This document shows, in pieces, positions 10,080 to 34,580 of a stretch of 64,000 nucleotides of DNA. This DNA is from an uncultured Lachnospiraceae bacterium (lineage in GTDB: Bacteria > Bacillota > Clostridia > Lachnospirales > Lachnospiraceae), in contig CANQAP010000008.1 of the NCBI GenBank assembly GCA_947589305.1, positions 1 through 64,000 of the forward strand. Reading direction: 5' to 3'. The position numbers and the translations under genes are program-made. Position 1 is the stretch's first letter, and each line of letters starts with the position of its first letter. The notes beneath the pieces are model-generated. The model worked only from the letters and a program-made list of their open reading frames with translations. It was not told where the DNA came from and made no database searches.

Positions 10080-10835
10080 ATGAAATTAGTGGCGATGTCT
10101 GCTTTGGGAATTGGCGGAGCGACCATTATCGGTTCGTGCATTGGGTTTTTGTTTCAACGGATTCCCCATAAGTGGAATGATGCAATCATGGGATTCGCGG
10201 CAGGTGTCATGTTGGCAGCTTCGATTCTCGGTTTGATTCAACCGGCGGTGGAGATGGTGAGTGCTTCCGGCATATGGATGATCGGACTCGGACTGTTTGC
10301 CGGCGCGATTTTTTTAGATTTAATGGATAAAGTCACTCCGCACTTGCATCATATTTCGGGTGTGGATGAAGAGGAGCATAAAAACAACCATCATTTGAAT
10401 AAAGTGTTGTTGTTTGTGATGGCGATTGCAATTCATAACCTGCCGGAAGGTTTGGCGACCGGTATGGCATTTGGAGGAAATAATATAAAAAATGCACTGA
10501 CAGTTACGATCGGTATTGCCATTCAGAACATACCGGAGGGTATGATCATCATTTCCCCGATGCTGATGGCGGGAATTAAGAAACGCCGTACATTTTTGAT
10601 CGCATTGTCTACCGGATTGATCGAGGTGGTGGGGACGTTTATCGGTTATATGGCGGTTCATTTGGCAAATGCCGTGCTGCCATTTGCACTGGCTTTTGCT
10701 GGCGGAACCATGCTGTATGTCGTGGGTGACGAAATGATACCGGAAACACACAGCCACGGTTATGAACGGATGGCAACTTATTCGTTGATCATCGGATTTT
10801 TCGTGATGTTGATGATGGATACGCTGCTGGCATGA
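10080..10835 (+). CDS. ZIP family metal transporter
   Basis: 251 aa; IHNLPEGLATGMAFG and QNIPEGMIIISP ZIP signature motifs. Confidence 0.93.
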   Translation: MKLVAMSALGIGGATIIGSCIGFLFQRIPHKWNDAIMGFAAGVMLAASILGLIQPAVEMVSASGIWMIGLGLFAGAIFLDLMDKVTPHLHHISGVDEEEHKNNHHLNKVLLFVMAIAIHNLPEGLATGMAFGGNNIKNALTVTIGIAIQNIPEGMIIISPMLMAGIKKRRTFLIALSTGLIEVVGTFIGYMAVHLANAVLPFALAFAGGTMLYVVGDEMIPETHSHGYERMATYSLIIGFFVMLMMDTLLA

Positions 10836-10874
10836 CGGTCATGGAATCGGAAAATAAACAGAAAAACAGTTTTA

Positions 10875-10901
10875 TTAGCACTCGTGTTAAATGAGTGCTA
10901 A
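10875..10901 (+). promoter_or_regulatory. CIRCE element (HrcA operator) upstream of htpG
   Basis: TTAGCACTC-N9(gtgttaaat)-GAGTGCTAA, exact match to the CIRCE consensus. Confidence 0.97.
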
Positions 10902-10908
10902 TTTTCTA

Positions 10909-10937
10909 TTGACAAGCGGGAACGAGGGGGCTATTAT
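10909..10937 (+). promoter_or_regulatory. Sigma-A-type promoter of htpG
   Basis: TTGACA (10909-10914), 17-nt spacer, TATTAT (10932-10937), immediately downstream of CIRCE. Confidence 0.85.
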
Positions 10938-10990
10938 TATCTGTAACGAGAATTCGTAGAGTATGAAATTTGCATAAGGAGATGTTGTAG

Positions 10991-13006
10991 ATGGCAGCAA
11001 AACGAGGTAATTTAACGATTAACAGTGAAAATATTTTCCCGATTATTAAAAAGTGGTTGTATTCCGATCACGATATTTTTTTTCGGGAACTGATATCCAA
11101 TGGTTGCGATGCGATTACGAAGTTGAAAAAATTATCCATGGTGGGAGAATTCGAGGAACCGGAAGATAACCAATATCGGATCGATGTGGTCGTAAGTTCG
11201 GAGAATAAGACGATTCAGTTCATAGATAACGGCTTGGGCATGACGGAAGACGAAGTGAATGAATATATCTGTCAGATCGCATTTTCAGGTGCGGCAGACT
11301 TTTTGGAAAAGTATAAGGACAAGGCAAATGACGACCAGATCATTGGTCATTTCGGGTTAGGATTCTATTCGGCATTTATGGTTGCCGATAAAGTCACGAT
11401 CGAAACCCTTTCATATCAGGAAGGAGCGGAACCGGTATACTGGGAATGCGATAACGGAACGGAGTATACCATAGCAAAAGGCGATCGTACCGAGCGTGGT
11501 ACGGTGATTACATTGTATCTGAATGAAGACAGTTATGAATTTGCGAATGAATATCGTGCAAAAGAAGTGATCCAGAAATACTGTTCCTTCATGCCGATCG
11601 AGATATATTTTACAAATGCAGACAAACCGGAAGAGCCGGAAGAAGAACCGGAAGAGGAGCAGGAAGTACTCGATGAAAACGGAGAAGTGATCGATGAAGA
11701 AATAGAAGAGACCGACGAGGAGACGGATACAGATACCGATGCGGAGCATGCCGATGAAAAGGCGGAATCGACGGAACCGGCAAAGAAAAAGGAAGTGAAG
11801 AAACCGCAACCGCTGAATGATACGACCCCGTTATGGATGAAGCATCCGAATGATTGTACGGAAGAAGAATATAAGGAATTTTATCGGAAAGTCTTTATGG
11901 ATTATCGGGAACCGCTGTTCTGGATCCATTTGAATATGGATTATCCGTTTAATCTAAAAGGTATTTTATATTTCCCGAAGATCAATCTGGAAGTCGAGAA
12001 TGCGGAAGGTACCATTAAACTGTACAACAATCAGGTATTTGTAGCGGATAATATCAAGGAAGTCATTCCGGAGTTTTTACTGTTGCTTAAAGGCGTGATC
12101 GACTGCCCGGACCTGCCGCTGAATGTATCCAGAAGTGCTTTGCAGAATGATGGATTTGTGAGAAAGATTTCGGATTATATCACCAAAAAAGTGGCGGACA
12201 AGCTTTCGGGTATGTGCAAGACTGAAAAAGAAGAGTATGAGAAGTATTGGGAGGATATCAGTCCGTTTATCAAATACGGCTGCCTGAGAGACGATAAATT
12301 CAATGAAAAGATGACGGATTATATCATCTTCAAGAATTTGGATGATAAGTATATCACGTTACCGGAATATTTGGAGGCAGGAAAGGAAACACACGAAAAC
12401 CAAGTTTTCTATGTCACAAACCGCCAAGAGCAGTCCCAATATATCAATATGTTTAAGGAAGAAGGCATGGATGCGATCCTGTTGACCAGCAACATTGATA
12501 CGCCGTTCATTACACATTTGGAGCAGAAAAATCAAGATGTGCATTTTCTGCGGATCGATTCGGAAATCTCAGAGAATTTTGTAGAAGAGACGGAAGAAGA
12601 TGAGGAGACGCAAAAGGCAAACACAGAGACGCTGACAGGTCTGTTCCGGAAAGTATTGAACAACGACAAATTGGAAGTCAAAGTACAGAAATTAAAGAAT
12701 GCGAACGTATCGGCTATGATCACGGAGTCCGAGGACAGCCGGAGAATGCAGGATATGATGAAGATGTATAGCATGGGAGGATTTGATCCGACGATGTTTG
12801 GCGGCGCAAGCGGTATCACGCTGATCCTGAATTCCAACCATACGTTGGTGCGGTATCTGTTGGAACATGAAGACGGTGAGCATACGAATACGATCTGCGA
12901 GCAGTTATATGATCTGGCAATGTTGGCGCATAAACCGCTGGAGCCGGAAGCAATGACGAAATTCATTGCCCGCAGCAATGAAATCTTAAGTATATTGGCG
13001 AAATAA
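10991..13006 (+). CDS. htpG: Molecular chaperone HtpG (Hsp90 family) with acidic linker insertion
   Basis: 671 aa; FFRELISNGCDAI, DNGLGMT, GHFGLGFYSAFMVAD, DLPLNVSRSALQND. Confidence 0.96.
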   Translation: MAAKRGNLTINSENIFPIIKKWLYSDHDIFFRELISNGCDAITKLKKLSMVGEFEEPEDNQYRIDVVVSSENKTIQFIDNGLGMTEDEVNEYICQIAFSGAADFLEKYKDKANDDQIIGHFGLGFYSAFMVADKVTIETLSYQEGAEPVYWECDNGTEYTIAKGDRTERGTVITLYLNEDSYEFANEYRAKEVIQKYCSFMPIEIYFTNADKPEEPEEEPEEEQEVLDENGEVIDEEIEETDEETDTDTDAEHADEKAESTEPAKKKEVKKPQPLNDTTPLWMKHPNDCTEEEYKEFYRKVFMDYREPLFWIHLNMDYPFNLKGILYFPKINLEVENAEGTIKLYNNQVFVADNIKEVIPEFLLLLKGVIDCPDLPLNVSRSALQNDGFVRKISDYITKKVADKLSGMCKTEKEEYEKYWEDISPFIKYGCLRDDKFNEKMTDYIIFKNLDDKYITLPEYLEAGKETHENQVFYVTNRQEQSQYINMFKEEGMDAILLTSNIDTPFITHLEQKNQDVHFLRIDSEISENFVEETEEDEETQKANTETLTGLFRKVLNNDKLEVKVQKLKNANVSAMITESEDSRRMQDMMKMYSMGGFDPTMFGGASGITLILNSNHTLVRYLLEHEDGEHTNTICEQLYDLAMLAHKPLEPEAMTKFIARSNEILSILAK

Positions 13007-26075: not shown

Positions 26076-26160
26076 AAATACCGTTTACGTAAGATTTGCT
26101 ACCGTTCACGTAATAGATATTGACAATTATAAATAACATGTCACACTGAGAATAAATTGG
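26076..26160 (+). promoter_or_regulatory. Copy 1 of a duplicated promoter block with paired ACCGTTyACGTAA repeats (candidate LytTR site)
   Basis: ACCGTTTACGTAA (from 26080) and ACCGTTCACGTAA (from 26101), 21-bp phase; TTGACA at 26120; ~85 bp shared with 29885-29968. Confidence 0.7.
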
Positions 26161-26192: not shown

Positions 26193-27515
26193 ATGGCAAA
26201 GAAAAGGAAAGTTATGAGTCTGATCTTGAGCCTGCCGGCATTGTTATTGCTGGCGGGCTGTTCAGAGAAGGAAACTGAAAGCAATCTGACATCGATATCG
26301 ACACTTAGACAATCTTTTGATGAGGAGACGGAACGGTTAAGGGATCGGGAATTTGATAACCTTGATTTTCAGGATGCTTATTTTGCGTTTCCGGAAGTCG
26401 ATGCGCTTTACAATCTCGAATATGAAAATGCTGTCACGGATTTCACATGGTCTCCGGAAGAAGCGTATGATTATTTATGTAAACAGACGGATGAATTATT
26501 TCCCGGATTATATGATGAGGAGCAGAAGGCGTATGAGATCCGGTTTATGGATGCGGAACCGGTGAACCGGGAAGTGTCGGACGATATATGGAGTCAGATC
26601 AATGCAACCGATAACTATGATTATCCGACACTGGAACAGTATCAAGAAGAAGATCTTGTGACTACGGAACTCCCGTGTCCAATGATTACCAACAGGGATT
26701 GCTATCTTGAATTATATAATGGCATCCTGAAGGGATACGATCAGGGAGAACTGGCGAGACGTACAGACTATAGTGGCAAGTTGGAAAAATTTGATGCTCT
26801 TGAGATATTTCCGATCGTGTATCGCACGATTGACCTACATAGTTTAAAAACATTTCATTTAGAAAGTGGGGATATTTCGATTGCGGATGCGGTGCAGTCT
26901 GCAGACGAGTATCTATCGAATTTGGAGCTGTCGTACCGGGAGCTTCCGTTTCAACCCAAGGTACAGAGCGTGAACGTACTTGCCATTGGAGGCGGCTGTT
27001 ATGCGTTTTATTTTAAGGTGGTTGAGGAATATAAGGGGATGGAATTCCATGCTGCTGAGCTGGATAAGACATCCATCGGTATCACGTACTTATCTGACAG
27101 TACAAATGAAGGTGGGATAGGAGGAGTGGCAGCCATGTGTGAAGCCGGTCAGATCACCAGATACAGAATGTCCACGCCATTTCTATACTCTGACGTTACG
27201 GAAACGGCAGAGTATGATGCGATCATACCATTGGAACAAGCAGCGGAACTGACATCCGTATATTTGACAGACGGTATGGAGTTTAAAGTACTGGGTGCTA
27301 CGGCAGTATACGTGCCTATATCAGAAAAAGACTCATCCCAGTATACGCAGGAAGAGGAGTATCAGCATAGACAGATAACGGTCAGACCCTGTTGGAGATT
27401 TCTCTTACAGCCTACAAACACAACCGGAAAGTTATATGATGTATTTGTGGATATGATTACTGGGAAAACATATACATTCATTCAGGTGATGGAATCAGAT
27501 GTAGAATATGAGTAG
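26193..27515 (+). CDS. Lipoprotein of ABC cassette 1, unknown family
   Basis: MAKKRKVMSLILSLPALLLLAGCSEKE lipobox; C-terminal VRPCWRFLLQPTNTTGKLYDVFVDMITGKTYTF. Confidence 0.8.
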   Translation: MAKKRKVMSLILSLPALLLLAGCSEKETESNLTSISTLRQSFDEETERLRDREFDNLDFQDAYFAFPEVDALYNLEYENAVTDFTWSPEEAYDYLCKQTDELFPGLYDEEQKAYEIRFMDAEPVNREVSDDIWSQINATDNYDYPTLEQYQEEDLVTTELPCPMITNRDCYLELYNGILKGYDQGELARRTDYSGKLEKFDALEIFPIVYRTIDLHSLKTFHLESGDISIADAVQSADEYLSNLELSYRELPFQPKVQSVNVLAIGGGCYAFYFKVVEEYKGMEFHAAELDKTSIGITYLSDSTNEGGIGGVAAMCEAGQITRYRMSTPFLYSDVTETAEYDAIIPLEQAAELTSVYLTDGMEFKVLGATAVYVPISEKDSSQYTQEEEYQHRQITVRPCWRFLLQPTNTTGKLYDVFVDMITGKTYTFIQVMESDVEYE

Positions 27516-28353
27516 ATTGATAAAATTTGATATGAACAGAATATTGGTCAGTGTTGGTTTTCCGGCGGCGGTTTTAGTCACATTTCTCCTTTGCTTTACG
27601 GAAGATATCTATATAGACAGCTTTACAATGCAGGCATATTCCGTATTTGAAGTGTTGTTCCGATTTGAACGCACATTTATGGAAAGAGACTTTTCATTTA
27701 GTTCGTTTATGGTCTTTCAGAATGCACTTTCCGGCTATTCTGCGATGTTTTTGCCGATTGTAGCATCATTTCCGTTTGTCTATTTACAAAGCGCAGAAAG
27801 GAACAGCGGTAATATTCGGTTTGCAATTTTCCGTACAAAAGGAAGAAAATATTATTTATCAAAATTTATCTGCGCGGTTGTAAGCGGCGGACTTTGTGTG
27901 ATGCTTGGGGTAATGCTTTTCGGTATCTTTTCCCTTTTGGCTTTTCCGCATGTGGAACATTATCCTGCATTTAGTGTGGAACCTTATGTACCGGACGGGG
28001 TTTTGACAGAAGTTGTCAGAAAATTGGTGTCCTCGTTCATTTATGGATGTGTAAACACGGTTTTCGCATTTTTTTTAAGTTCGTTTTGCCGTAACCGCTA
28101 CATTGTCTTGTGTGTTCCGTTTTTGATGCGGTTTATTCAGGATACGGCAACCAAAAAAATCATGGTTTATGAAGGTGGGGAGGAAATATATCAAAGGGTG
28201 TTCCCGTTCACATGTTCTGCACCGGCACAAATCCCATATTTGGATTCAGGACCAATGCTTTATTCGACGATCGGTGTTATGGTAATCTTTATGGTACTCA
28301 TGCTTTTCGGATATATCATGATTATGACATGTCGAACGGATAAAGGAGAATGA
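27508..28353 (+). CDS. Membrane protein, candidate ABC permease subunit (cassette 1)
   Basis: 281 aa, multiple hydrophobic segments, overlaps the lipoprotein stop; next to ABC ATPase. Confidence 0.75.
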   Translation: MSRLIKFDMNRILVSVGFPAAVLVTFLLCFTEDIYIDSFTMQAYSVFEVLFRFERTFMERDFSFSSFMVFQNALSGYSAMFLPIVASFPFVYLQSAERNSGNIRFAIFRTKGRKYYLSKFICAVVSGGLCVMLGVMLFGIFSLLAFPHVEHYPAFSVEPYVPDGVLTEVVRKLVSSFIYGCVNTVFAFFLSSFCRNRYIVLCVPFLMRFIQDTATKKIMVYEGGEEIYQRVFPFTCSAPAQIPYLDSGPMLYSTIGVMVIFMVLMLFGYIMIMTCRTDKGE

Positions 28354-28355
28354 AT

Positions 28356-29231
28356 ATGAGTAAATTTAACTGCATGCACATGCTCGCCTGTGCATGGACC
28401 GGTTTTTTAAAATGGTTGATGGATGCAAGAATGATCATTATTTTATGTATATGTATCTTTGTATATTCGTTTGTCGTAGATCCGATCATGGCAAATGCAA
28501 AGCTGATGAACGAGTCGATCAACGTATTGGAGCCTTTTATTGCCACACTGAATTCAGGGATGGTTCTTTTAATCATACCGTTAGGGTTTTTGACATTGAT
28601 TTCGGATTATCCGAAAATCGATGACAGTTCGATTTTTTATATTTTCCGTATTGGAAAAAAGAACTGGTTATTTGGACAGATCTTACAGTTGCTGCTGATG
28701 GTCGTTACATATCTTTTGGCAATCTTTACAGCCTCGGTCGCAGGCGCCTGTATGAGTGGATATATCGGTAAGGAGTGGAGCCGTGTGACCACGAATTTTG
28801 TAGCTGAATTTCCGGAACAAAGCGGAAATTTTGGGGCTTTACTGCTTCCAGAAAACCTGTATAACCAGATGACGTTGCCGGTTGCTCTCATAGAAAGCAC
28901 ATTATTTGTGATCATGTATCTGTTTTTTTTAGGTATGCATTTGCTTGCCTTTTCCGTTGCGGAAAAAAAGGCGGCAGGATTGATCACCTGTGGACTGATC
29001 ATTGCTCTGGGTTCTGCCTTTTGTTCGATCAATACAAAATTAATGTGGATTTTTCCGATGCCGCACGCGATTGTATGGCTGCATTATACCAAGTTTTTGC
29101 GAGAACCGGTTGTCCCGATCGTTTATTCGGTGATTTATTTCACCTTAGGTATAGTGGCAGAGTTGGTTTTCTGTATAGTTTCCTTGAAACGATTTGATTA
29201 CAATACGATTGCGTTGGAGGTGCATTCTTAA
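28356..29231 (+). CDS. Membrane protein, candidate ABC permease subunit (cassette 1)
   Basis: Multi-TM; MDARMIIILCICIFVYSFVVDPIMANAK; paralogue at 32218-33069. Confidence 0.75.
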   Translation: MSKFNCMHMLACAWTGFLKWLMDARMIIILCICIFVYSFVVDPIMANAKLMNESINVLEPFIATLNSGMVLLIIPLGFLTLISDYPKIDDSSIFYIFRIGKKNWLFGQILQLLLMVVTYLLAIFTASVAGACMSGYIGKEWSRVTTNFVAEFPEQSGNFGALLLPENLYNQMTLPVALIESTLFVIMYLFFLGMHLLAFSVAEKKAAGLITCGLIIALGSAFCSINTKLMWIFPMPHAIVWLHYTKFLREPVVPIVYSVIYFTLGIVAELVFCIVSLKRFDYNTIALEVHS

Positions 29232-29864
29232 ATGATAGTAGTAGATCATGTGTTTCTGACATTGAAAAAGACACCGATTTTAAATGACATCAATGTAAAC
29301 TTTGAACGGGGAAACATTCATGGCTTAATCGGTAGAAATGGCAGTGGAAAAACAATGTTAATGAAATGTATATGTGGATTTGTAAATCCGACGCAAGGAC
29401 AGATCACGGTAGACGGAAAACGGATTGGAAAAGATTGTGATTTTCCGGACAATACGGGAATTATTATTGAAATGCCGGGTTTTATTCCCTATTATTCCGG
29501 ATATAAAAACCTTGTGCAGCTTGCCAACCTGCGAAAAAAAGCTACCGCTGATGACATCCAAAATGCAATGCAGGCGGTGGGGCTTGATCCTTTGTTAAAA
29601 CGGCATGTCCGGAAGTATTCATTAGGAATGCGGCAGAGGTTGGGATTGGCACAGGCGATTATGGAAGATCCGGATTTATTGGTTTTGGATGAACCGATGA
29701 ACGGATTAGATAAGGATGGCGTTGCAGATATGCGGCGGTATCTACTGGCATTAAAAGAGCGTGGAAAAACTATATTGCTTGCGTCACACTCAGCAGAAGA
29801 TATTGATGTGCTTTGCGATACGGTTTGTGAAATGGATAAGGGAAGACTCCAGCGGATTCGATAA
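29232..29864 (+). CDS. ABC transporter ATP-binding protein (cassette 1)
   Basis: 210 aa; GRNGSGKTMLMKCICGFV, YSLGMRQRLGLAQAIMEDPDLLVLDEPMNGLD. Confidence 0.95.
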   Translation: MIVVDHVFLTLKKTPILNDINVNFERGNIHGLIGRNGSGKTMLMKCICGFVNPTQGQITVDGKRIGKDCDFPDNTGIIIEMPGFIPYYSGYKNLVQLANLRKKATADDIQNAMQAVGLDPLLKRHVRKYSLGMRQRLGLAQAIMEDPDLLVLDEPMNGLDKDGVADMRRYLLALKERGKTILLASHSAEDIDVLCDTVCEMDKGRLQRIR

Positions 29865-29884: not shown

Positions 29885-29968
29885 AAATACCGTTTACGTA
29901 AGATTTCTACCGTTCACGTAATAGATATTGACAATTATAAATAACATGTCACACTGAGAATAAATTGG
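29885..29968 (+). promoter_or_regulatory. Copy 2 of the duplicated promoter block (candidate LytTR site)
   Basis: Identical to 26076-26160 except one missing g; repeats start at 29889 and 29909. Confidence 0.7.
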
Positions 29969-30093
29969 AAATCAGAAAAGATTCTCCGATTTACACACTC
30001 AAAAACATATTAAGAAAAAATGTGATATTTGACAAAGGTGGCAGAGGGAATGATTTCTAAATTATTCCCCCTGCTACATATAGGAGGATTGTA

Positions 30094-31377
30094 ATGAAAA
30101 AACGAACATTATCTCTGATAGCGGCTGTATGTCTTTTATGTCTGATGGGATGCGGATCGCAAATAGAACAAGACATTGCTGGTTCAACGGCTTCTTCAGA
30201 AACCGGCATGACGGAATTGGAACCGTTACAATTTTCGATGGATTTCGCTTCGGGACGCACGGACATTTCAGAATGCCGCAGTCAATATGAAAGTGAGATA
30301 AAGGCTTTACAGGAAAGTAACTATGACAACGTTAGTTTTCAGGATTGTACATTCCTTCCTCTTGGCAATGTGGAGAAAGTAGGTGTATACAGAGGATATT
30401 ATAAAGGGATAGGAGTGGATGAGAGTATCGGTATCGTCAAAGACTGGCTGAACGATATTGGGTGTGAAGATATTGATTTGGAAACGGAATTGCGGGATGC
30501 CTCAGGTCAATATGAACTGGATGACAGCAAGGAAGCACCGTATTGTTATGTAAGCGTGTTTGAACATTATCCGGACTTTGATTCGGGAAGAGGATTTTTA
30601 ATTAATACCAACCGGTGTGCTATTCAAATGGGAAGCGGAGGTATTTATTCTATGAGCGACGGCAGTATCACGGAATATTTAAATACGGGAAAACGGGCAA
30701 ATGGCGATGCACAAGGGGCATTTTTGGGATTGCATAACGAAAAAGTCATAGAAACCGGCTTGGTTTCCGAAAAAAATGATGAGGTATGGTCATTAGTGGA
30801 TGGTGAATGTTCTATAGGCGATGCAGCCAAGATGGTTGAGGATTATTTTGAAGCGGGGACACCCTATCCGCCGATGGAAGGTGTGTCTGTAGATGTACCA
30901 AAAGTCGCAGTATTTGAATTAAATGATAAATATGGATATGCGTTTCAGATACGTCGGGTTTACAATGGGGTACCGTTTGCGTATGCAAATCATGGTGGAA
31001 GGACATATTACAGTTCTAAGTATATTAATGAGGATATAAAACATGTTTATGTCATCAATCATGATACGGTAGCGGCTTATATAGGATACATCGAAAGTAT
31101 GCAGTTGGAAAGTCTGATTGATGAACAGACAGATATCTTAAGCTGTCAGGATGCAGCTTCCGTACTGAGTGATTATCTAGCCGGAAAAGTAAAATTAGAG
31201 GTAGAAAAAGTGGAACTAGTATACTGCCCTTGTGACTATGCAGAAGAGCAGTGGATCGTGCATCCATGCTGGCAGTTTGAAGGGATGTGTACGACGAATG
31301 ATCAGATGATGCGTGCATATGTCAATGTTTTATCGGGGGATGTGTATTACTACACATTTAATGAGGACATCATATGA
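30094..31377 (+). CDS. Lipoprotein of ABC cassette 2, unknown family
   Basis: MKKRTLSLIAAVCLLCLMGCGSQ lipobox; C-terminal VHPCWQFEGMCTTNDQMMRAYVNVLSGDVYYY. Confidence 0.8.
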   Translation: MKKRTLSLIAAVCLLCLMGCGSQIEQDIAGSTASSETGMTELEPLQFSMDFASGRTDISECRSQYESEIKALQESNYDNVSFQDCTFLPLGNVEKVGVYRGYYKGIGVDESIGIVKDWLNDIGCEDIDLETELRDASGQYELDDSKEAPYCYVSVFEHYPDFDSGRGFLINTNRCAIQMGSGGIYSMSDGSITEYLNTGKRANGDAQGAFLGLHNEKVIETGLVSEKNDEVWSLVDGECSIGDAAKMVEDYFEAGTPYPPMEGVSVDVPKVAVFELNDKYGYAFQIRRVYNGVPFAYANHGGRTYYSSKYINEDIKHVYVINHDTVAAYIGYIESMQLESLIDEQTDILSCQDAASVLSDYLAGKVKLEVEKVELVYCPCDYAEEQWIVHPCWQFEGMCTTNDQMMRAYVNVLSGDVYYYTFNEDII

Positions 31378-32231
31378 GAGAATGGTACAGTGAGATCAAA
31401 AAGAATCTGTATCTGCCTGTCTTTCTTTTGTCGTGTTTGGGAGTAGCTTTAATCTGTTGTTTTAGTGAAGGATATATGTCGATCAATGGAAAGCACTATA
31501 CGATTATGGAATTACTGCTCTTTTTACATAGAGAGACCATGTTGGCGGAGATATCTTTAAACCGATATGAAATATGGAAACAAGGGATTGGCACTTGGAG
31601 CCAGCTTTTGTTTCCGCTGTTATTGAGTATTGGTTATCTTGTCATGCTTTCATGTGAGAAAAAAACCGGTTTTAACCGTCTGCTATTGACCCGGGAAAAT
31701 AATATCAAGTATTGTGTTTCGAAATTATTATCCGCCATGATCAGCGGAGGCATCATACTTTTATGTGGTTATTTACTGTTTGGTTTGATCGTCTATATGC
31801 GATTTCCAGCCGTTCAGGAATACTCTGCCGAACAGTTAGATTATTATATGGGCATCCATCCGGACTTTCATGAAGTCTTATGGATAGGAAAACGGTGTGT
31901 CGGAATCTTTCTATATGGTATGGGGGTCAATGTATTTGCATATTTTGTGTCTGTTTGGTTTACGGATCAATATATTCTTTGTTGTTTACCGATTATGCTG
32001 AAGTATATATTGGACAGGGCAGTCACAAAAATAGTTACGGATGCTATGAGCCACGACTGGGATACGCTTCTGACTCTGGGTTCAAGTTTATATTTGGAAA
32101 ACCTTCTGAATATAGATATGCCGGTCAGTTTTGGACTCACCCTGCTGTTTGTCATTCTTTTGTATTTGTGTGGATTCTTTTTGATGCTATATTGTCTCAC
32201 AAAACGAGGGGAGGACTATGGGTTTGAATAA
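31374..32231 (+). CDS. Membrane protein, candidate ABC permease subunit (cassette 2)
   Basis: 285 aa multi-TM; 4-nt overlap with upstream gene; equivalent position to 27508-28353. Confidence 0.75.
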   Translation: MREWYSEIKKNLYLPVFLLSCLGVALICCFSEGYMSINGKHYTIMELLLFLHRETMLAEISLNRYEIWKQGIGTWSQLLFPLLLSIGYLVMLSCEKKTGFNRLLLTRENNIKYCVSKLLSAMISGGIILLCGYLLFGLIVYMRFPAVQEYSAEQLDYYMGIHPDFHEVLWIGKRCVGIFLYGMGVNVFAYFVSVWFTDQYILCCLPIMLKYILDRAVTKIVTDAMSHDWDTLLTLGSSLYLENLLNIDMPVSFGLTLLFVILLYLCGFFLMLYCLTKRGEDYGFE

Positions 32232-33069
32232 CATGAAAACGATATGGAGTATTGCTCAGATAGAATTACTGCGGTTGGTCAGGAGTACCAAGATGATCAT
32301 TTTGGCTATGTTTTTGATCTTTGTGAATATTCAGATCCTAGCACCGCTTAGAGCATTAAGTATCGATATGGGAGGGAAGCTCTCTGTTTTAGAACCGTTT
32401 GCGGCAATCGGGAATTCAGGAGCCGTCGTATTAATACTGCCGCTTTTTTTTGTGACCATGATGGCAGACTTTCCAAGAGAAGGAGACTGTCAGTATTTCT
32501 ATCAGATACGTTGCAGTAAGCGAATATGGATAGCCGGTCAGATTGTGTATGCGATCGAAAGTTCTGTGCTGTTGACTGTATTTGTATTTGTTTCATCGGT
32601 GTTGTTATCTTTGGATTTTATAAGCATGGATGTCCGGTATAGTGATGCCGTTACAAAATATGTATCTGTCTTTCCGAATCGTTCCGGAGATTATGTGGTG
32701 GCTTTAATTCCGGAAGAACTATATAATCAGATGCAGTTGTCTACAGCCGTGATTCATACGGCATGCCTTTTGATATTATATTTTATCATGTTGTCGTTGT
32801 TGATTTTGTTATTTTCTATGATTAAAAAGAAAATCTTGGGGATTGTTACGGACGGATTGGTAATTGCATTGGGAACGATTGCCTGTGCGGGAAGAATAGC
32901 ATTTATGTGGATTCTTCCCATGGCACATACGATCACATGGCTGCATTATGCGGAATATCAGAGAATGCCCATCCTGCCAATCGGATATTCCTATCTTTAT
33001 TTTGCTATCATCAATGTTATGTTGATCGCAGTATCCCTTATCATCAGTAAGCGTTGTTACGGTATCTGA
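32218..33069 (+). CDS. Membrane protein, candidate ABC permease subunit (cassette 2)
   Basis: 283 aa multi-TM; shares FPxxSG(N/D)...LxPExLYNQMxL with 28356-29231. Confidence 0.75.
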   Translation: MGLNNMKTIWSIAQIELLRLVRSTKMIILAMFLIFVNIQILAPLRALSIDMGGKLSVLEPFAAIGNSGAVVLILPLFFVTMMADFPREGDCQYFYQIRCSKRIWIAGQIVYAIESSVLLTVFVFVSSVLLSLDFISMDVRYSDAVTKYVSVFPNRSGDYVVALIPEELYNQMQLSTAVIHTACLLILYFIMLSLLILLFSMIKKKILGIVTDGLVIALGTIACAGRIAFMWILPMAHTITWLHYAEYQRMPILPIGYSYLYFAIINVMLIAVSLIISKRCYGI

Positions 33070-33083
33070 AAAGGAGCATTCAT

Positions 33084-33728
33084 ATGATACAAGTGAAAGA
33101 TTTAAATGTTACGATAAAAGGAAAATCGATCCTGTCGGATGTGAATATCACGATGGAAGAAGGAAAAATATATGGATTGATAGGCAATAACGGAAGCGGT
33201 AAAACAATGCTGATGAAATGTATCTGCGGATTCGTTAAGCCGATATCCGGTGAAATCCTCGTAAATGGAAAGATAATCGGAAAAGACATAGATTACATTC
33301 AGGATACGGGGATTATCATAGAAAATCCGGGGTTTATCCCATATTATTCCGGCATAAAAAATCTGATGATGTTGTCGGAAATCAGTGGAAAAGCGGATAA
33401 AGAGAAAATCAAGGAAACCATGAGGATGTGCGGACTGGATCCCGAACTGAAATTACCGGTTAAAAAGTATAGTTTAGGGATGAGACAGAGACTGGGAATC
33501 GCTCAGGCGATCATGGAGGATCAAACTGCCTTGATCTTGGATGAACCAATGAATGGATTAGACAAAGAAGGAGTATCTGCGATGCGGCAATTATTCTTAA
33601 CCATGAAACAGGAAGGAAAATTGATCATACTTACCAGCCATAATCGCGAAGATATAGATCTGCTTTGTGATGAAGTCTTTGAAGTGGAAGCAGGGAGAAT
33701 TCGAAAAATAGTGGGACATGATGTATAA
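33084..33728 (+). CDS. ABC transporter ATP-binding protein (cassette 2)
   Basis: GNNGSGKTMLMKCICGFV, YSLGMRQRLGIAQAIMEDQTALILDEPMNGLD; start MIQVKDLNV after aaaggagc. Confidence 0.95.
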   Translation: MIQVKDLNVTIKGKSILSDVNITMEEGKIYGLIGNNGSGKTMLMKCICGFVKPISGEILVNGKIIGKDIDYIQDTGIIIENPGFIPYYSGIKNLMMLSEISGKADKEKIKETMRMCGLDPELKLPVKKYSLGMRQRLGIAQAIMEDQTALILDEPMNGLDKEGVSAMRQLFLTMKQEGKLIILTSHNREDIDLLCDEVFEVEAGRIRKIVGHDV

Positions 33729-33878: not shown

Positions 33879-34580
33879 TTGATACGTTTTGCAATTTGTG
33901 ATGATGAATCACATTTTTTGGATTTCTTTCAAAAGAAATTACGGGAACACTTGGAATCATTAAAAATCGACCATAAGATTACATGTTATGATAACGGTCA
34001 GGCATTCTTAAAAGATATTGCGGATTATGACGCAGTGTTTCTTGATCTTCATATGCCGGAAATGAGTGGTTTAGAGGTGGCGAAATATATTAACGAAAAC
34101 CATCCGATACCGGTTTTGTTTCTTTCCGCACATAGTGAATGGGCATATGCCACAGTACAATTTCAACCGTTTCGTTTTATCAGAAAAACATTCATTGATA
34201 TAGAATTGGATGAGGCGCTTTGTGCTTTGAATCGATATATGGATATGCAGGCTCAGCATCACTTTGTGTCTTTTCGTACTGCGTCAGCCGATATCAGGAT
34301 GTGTGTAAGAAATATCAAATATGCTGAAATATATGATCATTTCATTCATGTACATACCATAGAGGGAGAGGAGTTTACTGGATACGGAAAACTGTCCGAT
34401 TATGAAAAACAGTGGGAAGAATACGGGTTTATACGGACGCATAAGAGTTATTTGGTGAATGGATGGTATATTGATTCCATACAGGAAAATACTGTGGTAT
34501 TGAAGGGCGGAGAAAAAGTTCTACTTAGCCGCAGACGGGAAGCAGCAGTCAACGAGAGACTAAGGGCGTTGCGTTCTTGA
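33879..34580 (+). CDS. LytTR-family response regulator
   Basis: TTG start after gagggaggg; CDDE, DAVFLDLHMPEMSG receiver; C-terminal SADIRMCVRNIKYAEIYDHFIHVHT...FIRTHKSYLVNGWYIDSI LytTR. Confidence 0.92.
   Translation: MIRFAICDDESHFLDFFQKKLREHLESLKIDHKITCYDNGQAFLKDIADYDAVFLDLHMPEMSGLEVAKYINENHPIPVLFLSAHSEWAYATVQFQPFRFIRKTFIDIELDEALCALNRYMDMQAQHHFVSFRTASADIRMCVRNIKYAEIYDHFIHVHTIEGEEFTGYGKLSDYEKQWEEYGFIRTHKSYLVNGWYIDSIQENTVVLKGGEKVLLSRRREAAVNERLRALRS

Follow-up and report, generated by a model that had tools for sequence, protein, structure and literature searches.

Known LytTR-type switches

Promoters of the Streptococcus mutans LytTR Regulatory Systems and of their bacteriocin genes (HdrR/BrsR) carry 9-bp direct repeats separated by a spacer of mostly 12 bp, in a minority of cases 11 or 13 bp, with a strong bias toward 10 bp between the repeats and the -35 hexamer (PMC6193735). 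These systems combine a LytTR regulator with a membrane inhibitor and are autoregulated, and ABC transporter genes are linked to some of them (PMC6193735). AgrA, a regulator with a receiver and a LytTR domain, likewise has paired direct repeats upstream of its target promoters, agr P2/P3, and FhRhHRS is described as the LytTR signature motif (PMC4227749). In Clostridium perfringens, the VirR boxes abut a -35 on its upstream side and consist of two direct repeats, imperfect and facing the same side of the helix (PMC2838878). On the side of the target genes, the LanI and LanFEG immunity cassettes combine a lipoprotein with two small permeases and one ATPase.

We analysed 64,000 nucleotides of DNA from an uncultured, gut-type Lachnospiraceae bacterium (hereafter, the window), in which two control regions form a well-supported new example of this already known type of switch. 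The locus has the repeat length, spacer and -35 distance of the HdrR/BrsR promoters and, like some of those systems, linked ABC transporter genes. However, its half-site word, ACCGTTYAC, is a different one, and its regulator, which contains a receiver domain, has no membrane inhibitor beside it and no site in front of its gene. The locus shares with agr a receiver-LytTR response regulator and paired repeats upstream of promoters, and the likeness extends to two relatives (G024 and G070) in which AgrD/AgrB-like genes lie in the same cluster; in contrast to agr, no agrB, agrD or AgrC-type kinase gene is seen beside the window regulator among the locus genes, and the apparent targets are ABC cassettes rather than an RNA or the agr operon. 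The arrangement also resembles VirR boxes, with a different half-site word and unrelated targets. Finally, the cassettes have the LanI/LanFEG gene composition and both of their ATPases have TIGR03740 as best NCBIfam match, but the ATPases score under the curated cut-off, the permeases and lipoproteins match no family, and no lantibiotic biosynthesis genes are seen in the region read.

Two promoters with paired direct repeats

A preliminary description had reported paired 13-nucleotide repeats, 21 and 20 bp apart, upstream of two TTGACA hexamers, and had read them as candidate LytTR sites in front of a weak -10. All four repeats are exact. At promoter 1, ACCGTTTACGTAA (26080-26092) and ACCGTTCACGTAA (26101-26113) start 21 bp apart; at promoter 2, the same words ACCGTTTACGTAA and ACCGTTCACGTAA (29889-29901 and 29909-29921) start 20 bp apart. 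The elements, all on the forward strand, are the following.

26080-26088, + strand: candidate LytTR half-site 1 of promoter 1, ACCGTTTAC, exact match (the repeated word reaches 26092)
26101-26109, + strand: candidate LytTR half-site 2 of promoter 1, ACCGTTCAC, exact match (the repeated word reaches 26113)
26120-26125, + strand: -35 hexamer TTGACA of promoter 1, 10 bp past half-site 2
26143-26148, + strand: weak -10 position of promoter 1, ACACTG, 17-bp spacer, consensus -10 absent
29889-29897, + strand: candidate LytTR half-site 1 of promoter 2, exact match
29909-29917, + strand: candidate LytTR half-site 2 of promoter 2, exact match, 11-bp spacer
29928-29933, + strand: -35 hexamer TTGACA of promoter 2
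26076-26160, + strand: promoter block of 85 bp, copy 1, equal to 29885-29968 apart from one 1-nt indel
29885-29968, + strand: promoter block, copy 2 (84 bp), by block comparison

Written as 9-bp half-sites, promoter 1 reads ACCGTTTAC-12 bp-ACCGTTCAC-10 bp-TTGACA and promoter 2 ACCGTTTAC-11 bp-ACCGTTCAC-10 bp-TTGACA. These are imperfect direct repeats in a 9-12-9-10 and a 9-11-9-10 arrangement, as published for LytTR promoters (PMC6193735), and both spacers, whose 1-bp difference the preliminary description took as a possible cause of unequal activation of the two cassettes, are within the natural LytTR range. The -10 is poor, as had been described: a promoter scan found no acceptable or consensus partner for TTGACA, and the hexamer 17 bp downstream of it at promoter 1 is ACACTG. 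Similarity between the promoters extends beyond the repeats, which the preliminary description did not remark, over an 85-bp block that is identical in both copies save for one indel in the spacer. Because the whole block is duplicated, the second promoter is not independent evidence for the site. The two natural promoters, otherwise identical and with an 11-bp and a 12-bp spacer, offer a ready-made test of whether spacing tunes activation by a LytTR regulator.

The 13-mer pair is confined to these promoters: no further exact copy of either word occurs in the window, where about 0.003 single matches are expected from base composition, the rest of the genome (an 87%-complete assembly) lacks the full pair, and the strict 13-mer pair has zero matches in 84,980 species genomes. 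A looser search of the genome for the 9-mer pair, allowing up to 3 mismatches, gave 18 matches vs 21 for a reversed-pattern control, that is, no excess.

Directly downstream of each site comes a four-gene operon, which encodes a lipoprotein-like protein, two permease-like proteins and an ABC ATPase, and the regulator gene stands at the end of the locus.

26193-27515, + strand: cassette 1 lipoprotein-like protein, by eye with a lipobox-like LLLAGCS at its N terminus, matching no family
27508-28353, + strand: cassette 1 ABC permease A, 26% identical to 31374-32231
28350-29231, + strand: cassette 1 ABC permease B, 38% identical to 32218-33069, homologs found
29232-29864, + strand: cassette 1 ABC ATPase, best NCBIfam match TIGR03740 (lantibiotic protection), below cut-off
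30038-30077, + strand: strong hairpin in the cassette 2 leader, -23.9 kcal/mol, z -4.25, with positional analogues in relatives
30094-31377, + strand: cassette 2 lipoprotein-like protein, 53% identical to the G391 ortholog
31374-32231, + strand: cassette 2 ABC permease A, 56% identical to the G391 ortholog
32218-33069, + strand: cassette 2 ABC permease B, 63% identical to the G391 ortholog
33084-33728, + strand: cassette 2 ABC ATPase, 73% identical to the G391 ortholog, best NCBIfam match TIGR03740
33879-34580, + strand: AgrA-like response regulator with receiver and LytTR domains (PF00072 and PF04397 over cut-off), 52% ortholog in G391, proposed to bind both sites; no kinase gene in the locus

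The regulator and its orthologous loci

We consider it likely that the repeat pairs are sites of a LytTR regulator, probably the product of 33879-34580, and that they activate both operons. This protein matches PF04397 with 62.8 bits (cut-off 22.6), its receiver aspartate Asp56 is intact, and it carries an intact FIRTHKS, which is the signature FhRhHRS with K for R. It is no AgrA equivalog by the NCBIfam model (24.6 bits vs a cut-off of 400), and a search of solved structures gave weak LytTR matches only. In the proposed mechanism, each repeat pair would be a dimer site: once phosphorylated, two molecules of the regulator would occupy the two 9-bp half-sites, on one helix face and about two turns apart. 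Bound 10 bp ahead of the -35, they would bring in RNA polymerase at a promoter whose -35 is good and whose -10 is poor, so that both lipoprotein and ABC-transporter operons would be switched on together rather than repressed.

Comparison supports the LytTR interpretation: the layout is the published one, similar pairs stand at LytTR two-component loci of other genera, and the G391 ortholog has a degenerate pair. In G391, the closest relative of the regulator (52%) has a GHKL kinase as its neighbour and is followed directly by a close cassette 2 ortholog (53-73%). The gap before this cassette reads GCCGTTTAT-11-GTCGTTGGT-10-TAGTAA-17-TATAAT (shuffle p about 0.01), with a weak second half-site (4/9 positions). 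In G070, by our reading of the locus, a kinase-regulator pair and genes resembling AgrD and AgrB come ahead of the cassette 2 ortholog, which is preceded by a perfect repeat of 21-bp period whose sequence is other than ACCGTTYAC. In G024, a regulator (35%), a kinase, AgrB/AgrD-like genes and a related cassette are linked, and no pair of the ACCGTTYAC sequence was found. On co-conservation of repeat and regulator, by which the preliminary description proposed to judge their pairing, these loci give a mixed picture: a degenerate pair of the same geometry in G391, no pair of this sequence in G024 and a different repeat in G070. The putative pairing of site and regulator is supported, not proven, by these three loci. 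Genus-level searches found no close regulator ortholog in seven sister genomes, nor in the sister genomes of G391, and ACCGTT-type pairs before other cassette homologs were only low-scoring and chance-like.

The AgrD/AgrB-like neighbours suggest that peptide quorum sensing controls the cassette in the relatives, and the recurrence of this link hints that peptides trigger immunity or export in gut bacteria. Such AgrD-like and AgrB-like genes adjoin homologs of the ABC cassette at L136 (about 11200-11360 and 10650-11200) and L084 (11332-12069).

The regulator is the sole LytTR protein encoded in the window, as had been noted, and the assembly holds five LytTR genes in all (this one and those on C3, C6, C7 and C15). 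It is unlikely, in our judgement, that the sites are real LytTR sites read by one of the other four, the window regulator being an orphan bystander or a cross-regulated copy. The number of candidates speaks for this reading, as does the presence of a GHKL kinase beside each of the regulators on C3 and C7, while no kinase gene is found among the genes of the window locus. But the window regulator's closest ortholog is accompanied by a cassette 2 ortholog and a similar site, the other four LytTR loci have no strict paired site, and by eye no ACCGTT pair stands in the short gap before the C15 gene, which encodes a LytTR-only protein with a small membrane partner. A search of the assembly, which is 87% complete, for an ortholog of the G391 kinase found none, and the window regulator gene itself has no repeat pair upstream. 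In the C7 region of the same genome (54255-57521; L005, L090), an AgrB-like gene, a GHKL kinase and a LytTR regulator stand together.

Repeat pairs in other Lachnospiraceae

We scanned 397 genomes of the family for ACCGTTYAC pairs with free spacing (offsets 11-41). Leaving out the own genome and one tandem array, 7/14 pairs fell at 20-21 bp (binomial p 1e-5); when one orthologous block was counted once, 4/11 did (p 0.004). Pairs stand before or just after the genes of LytTR two-component loci in G103, G401, G342 and Agathobacter ruminis: upstream of the kinase-regulator genes in G103, downstream of the regulator-kinase genes and upstream of a small peptide gene in G401, and, in A. ruminis JK623 (G292), upstream of the regulator with a second pair after the kinase. 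A -35-like hexamer lies 10-11 bp past repeat 2 in G103 and G401, by eye. Three genomes with 20-21 bp pairs (G257, G286 and G112) showed no LytTR regulator in the stretch fetched. Taken together, the window and these loci tie a LytTR half-site word (ACCGTTYAC, repeated every 20-21 bp) to both regulators and ABC cassettes of the Lachnospiraceae.

The same loci bear on the register of the promoter. By eye, TTCACG (26105-26110), inside repeat 2, and TATAAA (26128-26133) form a -35 and a -10 with a 17-bp spacer; in that register, a bound LytTR protein would overlap the -35 and might repress. The poor -10 available to TTGACA speaks for it. We regard this as quite unlikely, since the 10 bp to TTGACA are the preferred LytTR geometry (PMC6193735) and the -10 in G391, G103 and G401 lies about 33 bp past repeat 2, by eye, as in the TTGACA register. 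That the repeats have nothing to do with LytTR, being a by-product of the duplicated promoter (whose entire 85-bp block was copied, the second copy carrying no independent weight) or the target of a dimeric helix-turn-helix protein at TTACGTAA, a near-palindrome within repeat 1, is very improbable: duplication of a promoter cannot yield two repeats within one promoter, and other genera share only the 9-mer, not the palindrome, at a spacing that stays 20-21 bp.

An order-level scan added little: matches outside the family were mostly at multiples of 3, as from coding repeats, and none of the newly fetched loci had a LytTR gene within 1.5 kb. A second scan, with a profile of the regulator, found distant LytTR relatives only (at most 33% identity) and one further locus with a pair, that of A. 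ruminis. In this species, two ACCGTTYAC-type sites (L251, 9853 and 12095) flank the LytTR two-component pair, and genes for uncharacterised coiled-coil-like proteins come after the second. L076 (8338) and L082 (105) have a promoter almost the same as that of the Agathobacter LytTR genes, but the stretch fetched showed no LytTR gene; the site is possibly a relict.

History of the promoter block and the cassettes

Corresponding genes of the two cassettes are 21, 26, 38 and 60% identical. Both cassettes are closer to genes of other genomes than to one another, cassette 1 to those of G372 (40, 53, 70%) and cassette 2 to those of G391 (53-73%) and G070 (49-74%). The cassettes are therefore old paralogs and not a recent tandem copy; since their promoters agree over 85 bp in all but one base, the promoter must either be a recent copy or have been kept identical. 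The operons look like lipoprotein and ABC cassettes of the lantibiotic-immunity type, and a role in immunity or export may be supposed: the two ATPases score 162.6 and 156.7 bits against TIGR03740, below its curated cut-off of 309.75, and the permeases and lipoproteins of both cassettes have no convincing family match. An AlphaFold2 model of the lipoprotein from a two-row alignment (pLDDT 35) was too poor for use.

G+C content in the locus is 0.37-0.43, vs mostly 0.46-0.51 in the flanks, although low values recur there at 21-23 kb and 38-39 kb. Together with the lack of a close match to the regulator or the promoter block in seven sister genomes, this fits acquisition of the locus from elsewhere. 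Searches of 60 relatives yielded no copy of the 85-bp block, the second promoter region was not found in plasmids, and Rfam had nothing in the locus.

Further downstream, the cassette 2 leader (about 29998-30094) can be loosely aligned to the promoter and leader of its G391 counterpart, so that the copied block may adjoin, on the upstream side, a decayed older promoter of cassette 2, as far as one alignment indicates. A broader scenario, which we hold to be tentative and rather doubtful, is that an agr-type regulator, after losing its kinase and signal genes, gained control through promoter transplantation of two immunity-like ABC cassettes that had diverged long before, the 85-bp LytTR promoter having been copied before the second cassette, beside the remnants of the older promoter, and the 1-bp shorter spacer setting a different response. 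The leaders of related lipoprotein genes in L138, L139 and, by its fold, G391 also contain strong hairpins at a similar place to that of cassette 2, of unrelated sequence.
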